Positions 59,760 to 64,000 of a DNA stretch of 64,000 bases are shown piece after piece. The notes beneath the pieces were generated by a model. The model made no database searches, was not told the origin of the DNA, and was given only the letters and a program-made list of their open reading frames with translations. Origin of the DNA: Thermotogaceae bacterium (GTDB lineage: Bacteria > Thermotogota > Thermotogae > Thermotogales > Thermotogaceae). How positions within the stretch are numbered: the stretch's first letter is position 1; each line of letters begins with the position of its first letter. The position numbers and the translations under genes are program-made. The stretch lies in NCBI GenBank assembly GCA_027077795.1, contig JALWTT010000006.1, forward strand, positions 186,001-250,000, read 5' to 3'.

Positions 59760-61025
59760 ATGGTAGCCTACGAGATCTTTGTTAGGTCCTTCAGGGATTC
59801 AAACGGCGATGGAATAGGGGATATAAAAGGTGTTGTGTATGCTTTAGATTACCTTCAAGATATTCATGTGGATATCCTGTGGCTCACCCCAATCTTTCCA
59901 TCTCCATCTTTTCACGGATACGATGTCGTTGACTACTACTCGGTCAACCCTCTTTATGGTAATGTTGAGGATCTGAAGGATCTGCTGGGGAAAGCCCATT
60001 CCTTGGGAATGAAGGTGATGTTGGATTTGCCATTGAGCCACACCAGTGTTCAGCATCCATGGTTTTCCGAGAAACCAGATTACTACATCTGGGCGGACGA
60101 CGGCACTGACATAAACGAGAGAAGGCCGTGGGACGATGCGTTCATCTGGCATCCTCTACGGAAGAGATACTACAGGGGACTTTTCGGGCCGTGCACTCCC
60201 GATTTGAATTATGAGAACGAAGCAGTTGTAAACGAAGCGGTTGAGGTGGTGAAATTTTGGAGAGGAGTTGGTGTGGACGGGTTCAGATTTGATGCGGCAA
60301 AGCACATATACGAGAATCACGAAAAGAATTTGGAATTCTGGCGGAAAATATCGCAATTTGCAGGAAAATTCAATGTGGCGGAAGTCTGGGACCCGCCAAG
60401 TGTTACGAAACTTTACTCGGATGTCGTTGGCTATGCACTCAACTTTCATCTTTTCGGGTCTCTGATAAAATCTGTGAAGGAGAGAAAACCAGATCACCTT
60501 TACCTTGCAATAAAAGAAACAGGGAGCGCCATGAAAAGCTCTTTCAATTTTTTATCCTCTCACGACACATCCCGCTTGGTGTCCCAATTTCCAGGGGAAA
60601 AGGAAAGGCTGTTTGCCATATCGATTCTGATGACCCTCCCGGGAGTTCCGGTGATCTACTACGGTGACGAGCTAGGAGTTCCCGGGATCTACGATCCATA
60701 CTTTCCCGAGCATGTCGCTGAGCCTTTTCCGTGGTGGGAATCTGGATGTGGGGAAGGACAGACAAGGTGGAAATCCTTCAGATTTTCAAGGCCGCATCAA
60801 GGCTTATCTTATGAGCATCAAAAGAGTGGTGAGAGTTTTCTGAAAAAGGTATCAGAGTGGATTTCGTTCCGCTCGCAGAACTCCTGGATAGACGAAGCGG
60901 GGATAAAAGACCTGAGTGTAGATCAAAGTTCGATAAGCTACACACTGTCCGGCAGAAAATCCATGATGGTGAAACACAACTTTGAAGAGTTCCAAACGGA
61001 AGTTAAATGGAAAGCGGAGCCCTAA
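59760..61025 (+). CDS. amyB: Cytoplasmic GH13 alpha-amylase, AmyB-like
   Basis: 421 residues, no signal peptide. GH13 barrel with YEIFVRSFRDSNGDGIGDI, LDLPLSHTSVQHPWF, nucleophile Asp in GVDGFRFDAAKHI, acid/base Glu in FNVAEVWD and the third Asp in LSSHDTSR. Size and layout match the short intracellular AmyB of Thermotoga, which trims imported maltodextrins. ATG 59760 is set by GAGGTG six bases upstream. Single gene facing the sigma-like cassette; their stops overlap. Confidence 0.9.
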   Translation: MVAYEIFVRSFRDSNGDGIGDIKGVVYALDYLQDIHVDILWLTPIFPSPSFHGYDVVDYYSVNPLYGNVEDLKDLLGKAHSLGMKVMLDLPLSHTSVQHPWFSEKPDYYIWADDGTDINERRPWDDAFIWHPLRKRYYRGLFGPCTPDLNYENEAVVNEAVEVVKFWRGVGVDGFRFDAAKHIYENHEKNLEFWRKISQFAGKFNVAEVWDPPSVTKLYSDVVGYALNFHLFGSLIKSVKERKPDHLYLAIKETGSAMKSSFNFLSSHDTSRLVSQFPGEKERLFAISILMTLPGVPVIYYGDELGVPGIYDPYFPEHVAEPFPWWESGCGEGQTRWKSFRFSRPHQGLSYEHQKSGESFLKKVSEWISFRSQNSWIDEAGIKDLSVDQSSISYTLSGRKSMMVKHNFEEFQTEVKWKAEP

Positions 61026-61036
61026 TCGGGCTCCGC
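61014..61036. terminator. Hairpin shared by amyB and the sigma-like cassette
   Basis: Perfect 9-bp stem GCGGAGCCC / GGGCTCCGC with a five-base loop spanning both stop codons. T-runs on either side are weak, so terminator strength is uncertain. Confidence 0.6.
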
Positions 61037-61330
61037 GAGTGTGTAAATCATCCTTAAAAAGGTGAAAGGGCTTTCCTTACTCTTTGGCGCGTATTCCCCT
61101 GAAAGCATGCTTTTAAGCTTGTAGTTCACCGTCCTTTTTATGTGAGCCGGTAGTGATCCTCGGCTTGGATCGTATATGTCGATCGAGTAAAAAAGAAGGT
61201 AGACTAGCGTCTGGTAAAGGTCATCATACGACGTTATCTTGTACCTGTACTTTCTGTACGTCTTCGCCGCAAGGCTTCTCAAGAAAGGCTCGAACTTTCT
61301 GTATACCCGTTCATATCTCTCACTATCCAA
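61022..61330 (-). CDS. Sigma-70 region-2-like protein without regions 3-4 (RsoA/SigO-like)
   Basis: 102 residues. The central part, YRKFEPFLRSLAAKTYRKY then TSYDDLYQTLVYLLFYSIDI and YDPSRGSLPAHIKRTVNYKL, reads as sigma-70 region 2 (core binding and -10 recognition). No region 4 follows; the C-terminus is a short tail. B. subtilis RsoA is a comparable region-2-only partner of SigO. TTG 61330 is the only fitting start and overlaps the upstream gene by 52 bases in another frame; the open frame further upstream is a shadow. Last gene of a four-gene cassette. Confidence 0.65.
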   Translation of the reverse strand: MDSERYERVYRKFEPFLRSLAAKTYRKYRYKITSYDDLYQTLVYLLFYSIDIYDPSRGSLPAHIKRTVNYKLKSMLSGEYAPKSKESPFTFLRMIYTLAEPD

Positions 61331-61521
61331 TCCACCATCCAGTCTGCGATCCTCTCCACAACCCAATCGTCTATGTTCAAGTCCGGTGTTGGATCTATCT
61401 CTTCCCAGATTTTCATCAGAAGCTCTTTCACCTTCTCTTTCTTCTCCTCTCCATTTCCCGGCTCCTCCACTAGCATGCATGCAACCTTGGCTGCGTTCCT
61501 TATCAGCTGAAATTTCCACAC
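61279..61521 (-). CDS. Unknown acidic 80-residue protein of the sigma-like cassette
   Basis: Not recognised. 80 residues from GTG 61521, fixed by GAGGTG six bases upstream. An N-terminal helix with two hydrophobic faces (FQLIRNAAKVACMLVEE), a charged linker, then a Trp-rich acidic helical part (DDWVVERIADWMVDWIVRD). No TM segment. It overlaps the sigma-like gene by 52 bases, so their translation is linked. Possibly a partner or anti-sigma-like protein; no direct evidence. Confidence 0.6.
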   Translation of the reverse strand: MWKFQLIRNAAKVACMLVEEPGNGEEKKEKVKELLMKIWEEIDPTPDLNIDDWVVERIADWMVDWIVRDMNGYTESSSLS

Positions 61522-61531
61522 TTCAAGCACC

Positions 61532-61741
61532 TCACTCAACTAGGTTGAAAAGCTCGTTTGTGGTCGTGTCAACGACAGCCGCTCTGTCAACCTGCCAATC
61601 TGACGGGACGATAACACCTTTCATCGAATTCATCAGATTCTGGACATCCGTTGCTGATATCCCGTCGATTGGATCCTGAAGTTGAAAATTCCTAGACCTA
61701 CCATCACTCGTTATGAAAGACATAATGAGCCTCTTTGCCAC
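61532..61741 (-). CDS. DUF2922-like small protein
   Basis: 69 residues. MAKRLIMSFITSDGRSRNF and the SATDVQNLMNSM / ELFNLVE pattern resemble DUF2922, a small protein family usually found next to DUF1659 and YvrJ genes in Firmicutes. Function unknown. GTG start with GGAGGTG exactly six bases upstream. Its stop lies beside the ribosome site of the 80-residue gene. Confidence 0.72.
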   Translation of the reverse strand: MAKRLIMSFITSDGRSRNFQLQDPIDGISATDVQNLMNSMKGVIVPSDWQVDRAAVVDTTTNELFNLVE

Positions 61742-61754
61742 TGATCACACCTCC

Positions 61755-61934
61755 TCAGAGAATCTGATCTGTTGTTATCTTGAAAGCGGAATCAGCGCTT
61801 CTTTGAGTCAAATTGTCCATGAGGTTCACTATGTTTTGGATGTCCGCATCGGCCGCCGTATCGAGGAGCGGGAGAGTCTGGCGCCTAGTTGTGGATCCAT
61901 CGGGAAGTATCCACACTATCCTGAGCTGTGTCAA
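61755..61934 (-). CDS. DUF1659-like small protein
   Basis: 59 residues from TTG 61934 (GGAGGTG six bases upstream). TQLRIVWILPDGSTTRRQTL then TAADADIQNIVNLMDNLTQ resembles DUF1659 and also the DUF2922-like product next to it, so the two may be related. First gene of the cassette. Function unknown; the family name is by pattern only. Confidence 0.65.
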   Translation of the reverse strand: MTQLRIVWILPDGSTTRRQTLPLLDTAADADIQNIVNLMDNLTQRSADSAFKITTDQIL

Positions 61935-61957: not shown

Positions 61958-61971
61958 TTGGAGCGCTCCAA
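61958..61971. repeat. Perfect palindrome in the cassette leader
   Basis: TTGGAGCGCTCCAA, 14 bases, in the 5' leader of the DUF1659-like gene (24-37 bases before its start). Possible operator or hairpin. Confidence 0.45.
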
Positions 61972-61977
61972 TATATA

Positions 61978-61993
61978 GTATACGAATGTATAC
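61978..61993. promoter_or_regulatory. GTATAC inverted repeat upstream of the cassette
   Basis: GTATACGAATGTATAC: two GTATAC blocks four bases apart, next to TATATATT-type -10 sequence on the minus strand. Looks like a regulator site or an unusual promoter for the cassette. Confidence 0.45.
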
Positions 61994-62167: not shown

Positions 62168-62198
62168 TTGACACATTTGAAATAAACTATGGTATAAT
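62168..62198 (+). promoter_or_regulatory. Predicted downstream promoter of the lipoprotein gene
   Basis: TTGACA, 19-base spacer, extended TGGTATAAT. Both hexamers are consensus although the spacer is long; 57 bases upstream of the gene. Confidence 0.55.
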
Positions 62199-62255: not shown

Positions 62256-64000
62256 ATGAGGGTGAACAGGGTGAGTATGAGGTACTTTAAGTATGCAAGT
62301 CTTGTCGCCGCCGTCGCAGTTGTTTTGATGATCGCACTCTCTGGATGTCAAGCCCCTGTCAACCAGCCTCCAACAGTTACGTTGAGCCTCAGCAACGGTG
62401 AGGTTGAGCCAGAGGCTGAAGTTACGGCAAGCATAATAGCCAATGATCCAGAGAAAGGCCCGCTCACATATTCGTTGAGAGTTGGAGCGACAGAGGTGGC
62501 GTCCGGAACTATTCCTGTGGATAAGCTGGGGAAAGCAGTTGAGGTGCCATTTAACGCTCCGAATACAGAGGGAAGCTATTCTGTAACGGTTATTGTCACA
62601 GATGAGGGCGGACTTACAGCGAGCGATTCGAAAACCTTGACGGTTAAAAAGCCCAACACCGCTCCTGAAATCGAGGAAGCTAGCCTCGATAGGAGCACGG
62701 CTACGCTTTCAGCTGATGAAAGCTCCACAGATGTAACACTTACGTTTAAAGCGGTCGATAAGGAAAGCAGCACGCTCTCTTACGCCGTCAAGCTGAACGG
62801 GGCAGAGGTGGACACCGGAAGCGTTGCGAGTGGTGAAGAAAAATCCGTTTCGATTACCGTTACACAACTTGGAAAGAACTACATAAACCTCAAGGTATCT
62901 GATGGAGCTCTCAGCGCGGAGAAAACGATGGTCTTCGAGCTCTACAAAAAAGGCAAAGTGACGATATACAACACAAGCGGATACGACATAATAGGGAACA
63001 AACATGATTCCATAACGTTCAAGATTTGGTATCAGTCATCTGGAGGTACAACACCGAAAGATATGTATTGGGCTATAAAAGATGAAAGCGGAACAGAGGT
63101 TGCCACCGGTACTGTTGATTACTCCGCTAATTTCGTAGACAATGTATACGATGGCTTCCAGGTAGCTTCTTCGACACTTGCAGGTCTTCCAGCTGGAAAA
63201 TACTCTCTGTGCGTGAAGCTTCTTGACGCGGTTGGGAATGTTATAGAGAACACTCAAGCCGCTTACAGCCCAATATACTACTACCCAGAGATAAGCCTCA
63301 GCGTTTCCTTGGTGCCGGATTCCACGAACAACGATTATGACAGCGATGTGTACGATGGGAACACCCCAATAGGATTCAAGGTAGTTATAAACGGTAATGC
63401 GACGACCACGTTGTTCAAAGGTGTTTCATTTGAGCTTGGTTCAAAAGCATACACAATCGATTGGGCGTTCACAAGTGATTCCACGGTAGAGGAACTTAGC
63501 GATGGAATCTACTATGTTGAACTCCCAGCCACGATAACATTCGATGTGACGGTGGGAGCCACCGAGATAGCAGCTCCATCGGCGGTAGCTACAGCCACAC
63601 TGGCAGACGAATCAGCTGAAGACGATTCCACCACGCTGAATAACATAGATGGACTGAACCCGGTGGTTTCCTTCAACCCAGAGATCATATCTAACGATAC
63701 GATAAGACTCGGATATGCGCTTTCTGATAGCAACTTCAAAGCTGCTACAATAACGTTCTATGATGAAGCAGGTGAGGAAGTTGCTTCTGCGACATTCAAC
63801 TCAGCTGGTTCTGGGTTTGAGAATCTGGTTATAAGTAAGAAAGTTGACAAGACATCTCTCACGTACTCTTACGAGGCAGAAGATTCGCTTGAGCATTCAA
63901 CGAGTGGCAGCTCGCCAGTGGAAGGATACATAGACACAGCGGTTGGAAGCGCTACGGTAGCATGGGAAAACTCCAGCTGGATAGAAAAAGACGGAATCAG
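62256..64000 (+). CDS. Large Ig-like-repeat lipoprotein, 3' end cut by the window
   Basis: At least 581 residues with no stop before the window edge. Signal peptide (KYASLVAAVAVVLMIALSGC) ends in a lipobox LSGC with Cys at about residue 31, so it should be lipid-anchored. Two Ig-like domains follow (about 36-131 beginning NQPPTVTLSLS, and 133-231 beginning NTAPEIEEASLD), then longer beta-rich Thr/Ser/Ala-rich sequence. Likely a surface protein for adhesion or polymer binding. GGGAGGTG lies 11 bases before ATG 62256, longer than usual; ATG 62277 is an alternative. Divergent from the sigma-like cassette. Confidence 0.82.
   Translation, partial: MRVNRVSMRYFKYASLVAAVAVVLMIALSGCQAPVNQPPTVTLSLSNGEVEPEAEVTASIIANDPEKGPLTYSLRVGATEVASGTIPVDKLGKAVEVPFNAPNTEGSYSVTVIVTDEGGLTASDSKTLTVKKPNTAPEIEEASLDRSTATLSADESSTDVTLTFKAVDKESSTLSYAVKLNGAEVDTGSVASGEEKSVSITVTQLGKNYINLKVSDGALSAEKTMVFELYKKGKVTIYNTSGYDIIGNKHDSITFKIWYQSSGGTTPKDMYWAIKDESGTEVATGTVDYSANFVDNVYDGFQVASSTLAGLPAGKYSLCVKLLDAVGNVIENTQAAYSPIYYYPEISLSVSLVPDSTNNDYDSDVYDGNTPIGFKVVINGNATTTLFKGVSFELGSKAYTIDWAFTSDSTVEELSDGIYYVELPATITFDVTVGATEIAAPSAVATATLADESAEDDSTTLNNIDGLNPVVSFNPEIISNDTIRLGYALSDSNFKAATITFYDEAGEEVASATFNSAGSGFENLVISKKVDKTSLTYSYEAEDSLEHSTSGSSPVEGYIDTAVGSATVAWENSSWIEKDGI

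Follow-up and report, generated by a model that had tools for sequence, protein, structure and literature searches.

A sigma region 2 protein without region 4 in a small chromosomal gene cassette of Thermotogota: candidate promoter box and a holin-related neighbour

Four very small minus-strand genes (A, B, C and D) are flanked by a convergent gene of amylase type and a divergent gene for a lipoprotein in a Thermotogota genome of 1.72 Mb (completeness ca. 96%), and the question raised by this locus is what the product of the last of them, a sigma-like protein without region 4, does in the company of the other three. The stretch of DNA analysed, called the window, is G000:C6:186001-250000 (64,000 nt); f1–f11 are family labels and g1–g38 genus labels, the taxon names attached to them being inferred. 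The genes and their ribosome sites (GGAGGTG before A and B, GAGGTG before C) were found where a sequence-only reading of the same DNA had placed them (Table 1). Judged by the sequence, A-B-C-D is one minus-strand operon with its own putative promoter and terminator.

Table 1: Features of the A-B-C-D locus, positions being those of the window.
Feature	Position	Strand	Remarks
A, DUF1659-family protein, 59 aa	61755..61934	(-)	TTG start; DUF1659 12.8 bits alone; family profile recovers Bacillota DUF1659
B, DUF2922 protein, 69 aa	61532..61741	(-)	GTG start; PF11148 E 9.6e-12, above cut-off
C, three-helix protein, 80 aa, pI 4.5, PGxGexKK motif, LLH phage-holin C-terminal-domain relative	61279..61521	(-)	GTG start
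D, sigma-70 region-2-only protein, ~102 aa, pI 9.5	~61022..61330	(-)	TTG start, uncertain; Sigma70_r2 match
Dyad GTATACATTCGTATAC, candidate operator overlapping promoter	61978..61993	(-)	conserved in f1, f2 and f11 relatives
Promoter-like box CGTATACTATATATTGG	61968..61984	(-)	recurs at module promoters of relatives
Perfect 14-bp palindrome TTGGAGCGCTCCAA	61958..61971	(-)	at expected transcript start
Terminator-like hairpin GCGGAGCCCGATTAGGGCTCCGC then TTT	61014..61036	(-)	overlaps D stop codon; conserved in G098 and G099

Within the genus (three genomes), dN/dS came to 0.04–0.06 for D; single measurable pairs gave 0.05 for B and ca. 0.1 for A. The low values of D and B, together with a gene order that recurs phylum-wide, show that the four genes are real and beyond chance. 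No clear ribosome site was found before D, which overlaps C by ca. 50 nt; its start-codon position is occupied by TTG, TTG and CTG in the three genomes. A longer D beginning with the GTG at 61519 was rejected, since the upstream extension (an open frame through C) gave dN/dS of 1.5–2.0 and is thus not protein-coding; a programmed frameshift from C into D was also rejected, no conserved slippery site being seen on by-eye inspection of the three aligned genomes. The D frame remains open through C in six f1 genomes. In the part of gene C at 61331–61521, dS was 0.5–1.3 vs ca. 2 or saturation in A, B and D of the three genomes of the genus; purine-rich codons may be the cause of this low synonymous divergence. 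The Rfam search gave nothing credible.

D is almost certainly a sigma derivative reduced to region 2, as the sequence-only reading had it. The window protein matched Sigma70_r2 with E 1.2e-4 (22.2 bits, just below the cut-off of 24), and 24 of the 28 D-family members were matched, the best at 1e-8. The AlphaFold (AF2) model had a pLDDT of 92; Foldseek matches were almost all to sigma region 2, single E-values being weak (best 0.089, probability 0.99), and the search against PDB gave FliA at 8.8e-7. Best conserved is the nearly invariant D37-L38-x-Q40, aligning with D-L-I-Q of the host FliA and RpoD; in sigma70 the D-L-x-Q segment, with D403 and Q406, makes contact with the beta-prime clamp. 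D is without the tryptophans and the other residues with which primary sigmas melt DNA, and the region 2.3/2.4 aromatics are not kept, so that DNA contact by D is putative. Region 4 is absent: the frame ends ca. 12 residues past the conserved P...PFT motif. A C-terminal helix-turn-helix is present only in the D relatives of f8 (L088, L089, L163) and f11 (L100), and two members of the alignment gave weak matches to region 4 there; G012 and G013 each carry a region-2-only D and a paralogue with the helix-turn-helix. As relatives in two other families keep this C-terminal part, D is probably a sigma that lost region 4.

The C family carries the motif LVExPGxGexKKxxV. Window C alone gave no family match; of 36 C-family members, 20 matched PHROG 6918 'holin' (best 8e-5) and 11 matched Phage_holin_6_1 (best 0.012), and the C profile aligned with eight LLH holins (PF09682 type; hhalign) at E 8e-6 and a probability of 84%, the alignment covering the GxGexKK motif and the helices that follow. 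By these profile comparisons the C family is related to the LLH phage-holin domain; C is not classed as a holin. The N-terminal transmembrane helix of LLH holins is not evident in the hydropathy of window C, which has no clear transmembrane stretch (best 17-residue value 0.76 vs maxima of 1.5–2.45 in other genera). C gave no PDB match and no sigma-like match. It had been suspected of being the missing partner of D, and this suggestion failed: C is an LLH-holin relative that accompanies D proteins retaining a helix-turn-helix, hence is not the missing half, and it occurs without D in many genomes; C as a stand-in for region 4 was rejected likewise. Opposite charge of C and D was discarded as a general sign of pairing, C not being acidic in several f2 genomes.

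B matched DUF2922 (PF11148) with 45.1 bits, the cut-off being 25.5; for A the DUF1659 cut-off (PF07872) is 24.1 bits, which its relative L099 passed with 46.8 bits, and with the Thermotogota A profile DUF1659 proteins of Bacillota were recovered (about 1e-3 to 1e-13). The literature search gave nothing on DUF2922, one passing mention of DUF1659 and no paper on YvrJ function. One contig scan was probed with a hand-typed DUF2922 consensus and its matches were confirmed by tblastn. On a mobilizable Lactobacillus johnsonii plasmid (NZ_CP062070.1, L101), a hypothetical gene, DUF2922 and YvrJ stand in a row beside an integrase gene.

DUF2922 was present in 84 of 103 Thermotogota genomes; a single-protein search gave D relatives in 55 of the 103, a count that includes some weak matches to other sigmas. 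Gene content was determined with profiles from 40 regions, run over 100 loci: A-B-C-D 44, A-B-C 23, A-B 12, B-C-D 10, B-C 7, C-D 3, B alone 1. Wherever D was linked to the module it was accompanied by C (57/57 loci); C without D was found at 30 of the 100 loci. A-B and C-D can be separate operons in f2 (L071-L075, L079, L214); the order is C-B-D in the Petrotogaceae-like f10, with an A-like frame between C and B in L096; and in genera g10 and g11 D is relocated to a locus of its own (L292-L300, E 1e-22 to 1e-26). A-B-C-D or recognisable rearrangements of it thus recur across Thermotogota. The sequence-only reading had staked itself on a predicted region 2 fold and on conservation of the four-gene order in some relative, and both were found. 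A phage or plasmid origin was rejected: 50,697 phage records held no relative of B, C or D, and DUF2922 on plasmids was limited to Lactobacillus plasmids (n = 18).

The DNA upstream of A is otherwise diverged in the three genomes of the genus, with the block GTATACATTCGTATACTATATATTGGAGCGCTCCAA (61993-61958) as a conserved island. The 21-mer GTATACATTCGTATACTATAT (up to 3 mismatches) and the pattern CGTATACTATN{3,5}TGG each occur once in the window's genome; the pattern is at the module promoter in 6/6 genomes of g1–g3. Each f1 genome has a single box, that at the module, so that no wider regulon is demonstrable for the window's genome. After a box, the different families have a perfect palindrome, the letters of which vary from genus to genus with palindromicity being kept; palindromes of at least 10 bp were found upstream of A at 45 of 82 Thermotogota loci vs 5.6 expected from mononucleotide shuffles, and control random regions gave 19/200 vs 17.4 expected. 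Where A-B and C-D are split, the same box and palindrome stand upstream of both operons, and related boxes stand upstream of the relocated, unlinked D genes. The f3 box, GTAGATAYAT.....TG, occurs 39 times in 17 genomes vs 5 occurrences of the reversed pattern, its sites being upstream of A-B-C(-D), relocated D, the g10 endolysin and TauE/SafE permeases. A box was found upstream of A at 30 of 57 loci from D-bearing genomes vs 1 of 25 from genomes without D, the genomes in these box counts being related, hence non-independent, and the patterns being derived from the same loci. In Thermotoga (g5) and in f8, D is present and the upstream sequence is different. With these exceptions, the relatedness of the genomes and the origin of the patterns, the box data support and do not prove D-dependent transcription.

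Several further elements of this kind were noted. The f3 box reads GTAGATATATTTATATG upstream of the TauE/SafE permease genes at L313, L328 and L329 (G079, G080). In G064, ca. 13 intergenic repeat copies with the module box and palindrome, CGTATACTATATAATGG then AAGGCGCC or ACAGCGCT, are dispersed with no obvious gene (L337, L349, L352-L355, L358-L362); they are possibly small RNAs or tiny mobile elements. Three intergenic boxes of G057 (L334, L347, L351) are followed by TGGACTGCAGTCTG, their flanks being otherwise unrelated and no clear gene lying downstream. The dyad (G)TATACATWTGTATA(C) was found upstream at L083-L086, L176, L210 and L292-L300, and at the relocated-D loci it directly follows a sigma-A-type TTGACA/TATAAT promoter; it points to a further regulator, acting on the module or on D.

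The divergent lipoprotein, which D had been thought perhaps to control, has ca. 1281 aa and contains Ig/PKD-like repeats (62256-63998 of the window and beyond; L061 8256-12101). A TTGACA-N19-TATAAT promoter of its own was located at 62168-62198. As a target of D it was dropped: this promoter carries no box, and in other genera the module has different neighbours.

Cell-wall hydrolases are linked to the module in relatives. In all seven g4/g5 (Thermotoga-like) genomes with the module locus, a glucosaminidase of ca. 135 aa without signal peptide is encoded directly downstream of the module; at L067 it is present despite missing D. In g10, a box is followed by a signal-less peptidase of M15 type, which begins 27–28 bases after the box start and has phage-endolysin matches at 1e-28 (L319, L320, L325); a fourth such box was found in G071. 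No hydrolase was seen beside the module in the window's genus, and a glucosaminidase query of the window's genome, made without a positive control, gave no match.

Loci that combine a dedicated sigma with a small holin-like protein and small co-expressed products form a recurrent theme, hence the reading of this locus as a D-controlled cassette for release or lysis. We infer its regulatory and release steps as follows. D would most likely dock on the beta-prime clamp of RNA polymerase and would help the polymerase to recognise a -10-like box, (C)GTATACTATAT..TGG here and GTAGATAYAT.....TG in the sister family; as the box stands upstream of the cassette itself, D would be autoregulatory. C, descended from or related to the cytoplasmic domain of LLH-type holins, would act at the membrane or together with a cell-wall hydrolase; in Thermotoga-like genomes the gene of the candidate hydrolase follows the module, and in g10 it stands behind the same box. 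A and B, the co-expressed small products, would most likely be exported or co-acting cargo. The whole might work like clostridial UviA-UviB-endolysin bacteriocin loci or like a sigma-2-only late-gene switch of the T4 gp55 style. That D acts at the box is a little better than an even bet; a self-regulated, sigma-2-driven, chromosomal cassette of the holin/endolysin type, kept across Thermotogota, has about even chances, and a holin/endolysin-type output as such is put forward tentatively. The reading in full, namely a cellular sigma that works via region 2 alone from a -10-only box with a start palindrome, drives its own operon and an endolysin and brings about holin/endolysin-type release of two leaderless small proteins, is rather doubtful as a whole. 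The literature search gave no paper describing such a cassette.

Four other explanations were weighed. D may no longer read promoters and may be a clamp-binding competitor or adaptor that damps or redirects sigma-A transcription, with C modulating D; this is unlikely, although it would account for the loss of region 4, for the core-binding D-L-x-Q being better conserved than the region 2.3/2.4 aromatics, and for the constant presence of C beside module-linked D. The box is kept by both halves of the split module and by relocated D and tracks the presence of D, so that a role in specificity fits better than general inhibition. Improbable, too, is a mere co-expression of A-B-C with a functionally independent D, the box being the site of an unrelated regulator or a structural DNA or RNA element: perfect palindromes of varied sequence, dispersed box copies without genes and the likeness of the dyad GTATACATNTGTATAC to a classical repressor operator point that way, and retention of the box upstream of relocated D genes and its rarity in genomes without D point the other way.

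The sequence-only reading proposed a split or partial sigma system, which held for the partial sigma and not for the region 4 partner. A two-subunit sigma of the RsoA/SigO type, in which D is region 2 and a separate region 4 protein is encoded elsewhere or is too diverged to be found, is decidedly improbable. B. subtilis RsoA/SigO is such a pair and drives yvrJ (PMC8103513), and YvrJ sits with A and B in Bacillota; however, the search of the window's genome with PF04545 and PF08281 gave only complete sigmas (RpoD, FliA and two others) and weak helix-turn-helices of unrelated proteins, no stand-alone region 4 being found, and D relatives with their own C-terminal helix-turn-helix share the same operon context. 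At a completeness of ca. 96% a gap may hide a region 4 gene. A domesticated phage lysis remnant, in which holin-like C, D and a hydrolase would be relics, with A and B as unrelated passengers, is very improbable, for the relation of C to LLH holins and the endolysin-type hydrolases that adjoin the module or share its box are set against the purifying selection seen for A, B and D, the persistence of A-B in two phyla and the lack of phage relatives of B, C and D reported above.

If the cassette reading is true, sigmas that work without region 4 are a matter not of phage T4 and a single B. subtilis pair alone, but also of a chromosomal system spread through a phylum, in which steps of region 4 loss are still visible (relatives with region 2 and helix-turn-helix, region-2-only copies beside them, relocated D). 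DUF1659 and DUF2922, common in Bacillota and Thermotogota, would obtain a first functional context and would be linked with cell-wall hydrolases and proteins of holin type. With the box and the palindrome, the target of D becomes directly testable in Thermotoga.

Among known systems, the nearest in gene content is the DUF1659-DUF2922-YvrJ triad of Bacillota, so that the analogy to SigO, RsoA and YvrJ drawn by the sequence-only reading has a real basis. Of 200 genomes drawn from the phylum to which a Heliobacterium belongs (Bacillota), half carried DUF2922, in the fixed order DUF1659-DUF2922 and mostly followed by YvrJ; a complete sigma gene stood directly upstream in ca. 7 of the sampled loci (L129, L130, L142, L147, L150, L154, L224). 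The A and B families, their order and the small protein that follows are alike; the small protein is YvrJ with a single membrane helix there and C in Thermotogota (13 Bacillota genomes with A-B gave no C), and the sigma is upstream and full-length there, whereas D is downstream and without region 4 here. RsoA of B. subtilis, a stand-alone sigma region 2, is linked to the same YvrJ that accompanies DUF1659-DUF2922 in Bacillota. In a two-subunit sigma of this type, a region 2.3-like segment would be expected to bind the SigO partner. The split sigma SigO-RsoA transcribes yvrJ (PMC8103513); it differs in that the search for a region 4 partner of D gave none, D is part of an A-B-C-D operon in which C replaces YvrJ, and some D relatives in the same context have a C-terminal helix-turn-helix of their own.

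D and gp55 are alike as region-2-only sigma-family proteins, D being assigned as such from its sequence and predicted fold. The late sigma gp55 of phage T4, a sigma-family protein reduced to region 2, reads a -10-like element only. D differs in being chromosomal and in having no known sliding clamp or gp33 co-activator; C is holin-related, and no test showed it to be gp33-like. Clostridial UviA (sigma)-UviB (BhlA holin)-endolysin loci join sigma, holin and hydrolase to bacteriocins (PMC9527704). Unlike these and the TcdR/TcdE loci, the present module has a sigma without region 4, a C of the LLH-like and not of the BhlA or TcdE type, A and B without known activity, and a location on neither plasmid nor pathogenicity locus; no endolysin gene was seen beside it in the window's genus, and one is tied to the locus in Thermotoga-like genomes and in g10. 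The parallel offered by the UviA/UviB and TcdR/TcdE loci is that leaderless secreted products go together with a sigma of their own, a small protein of holin type and an endolysin (PMC9527704).
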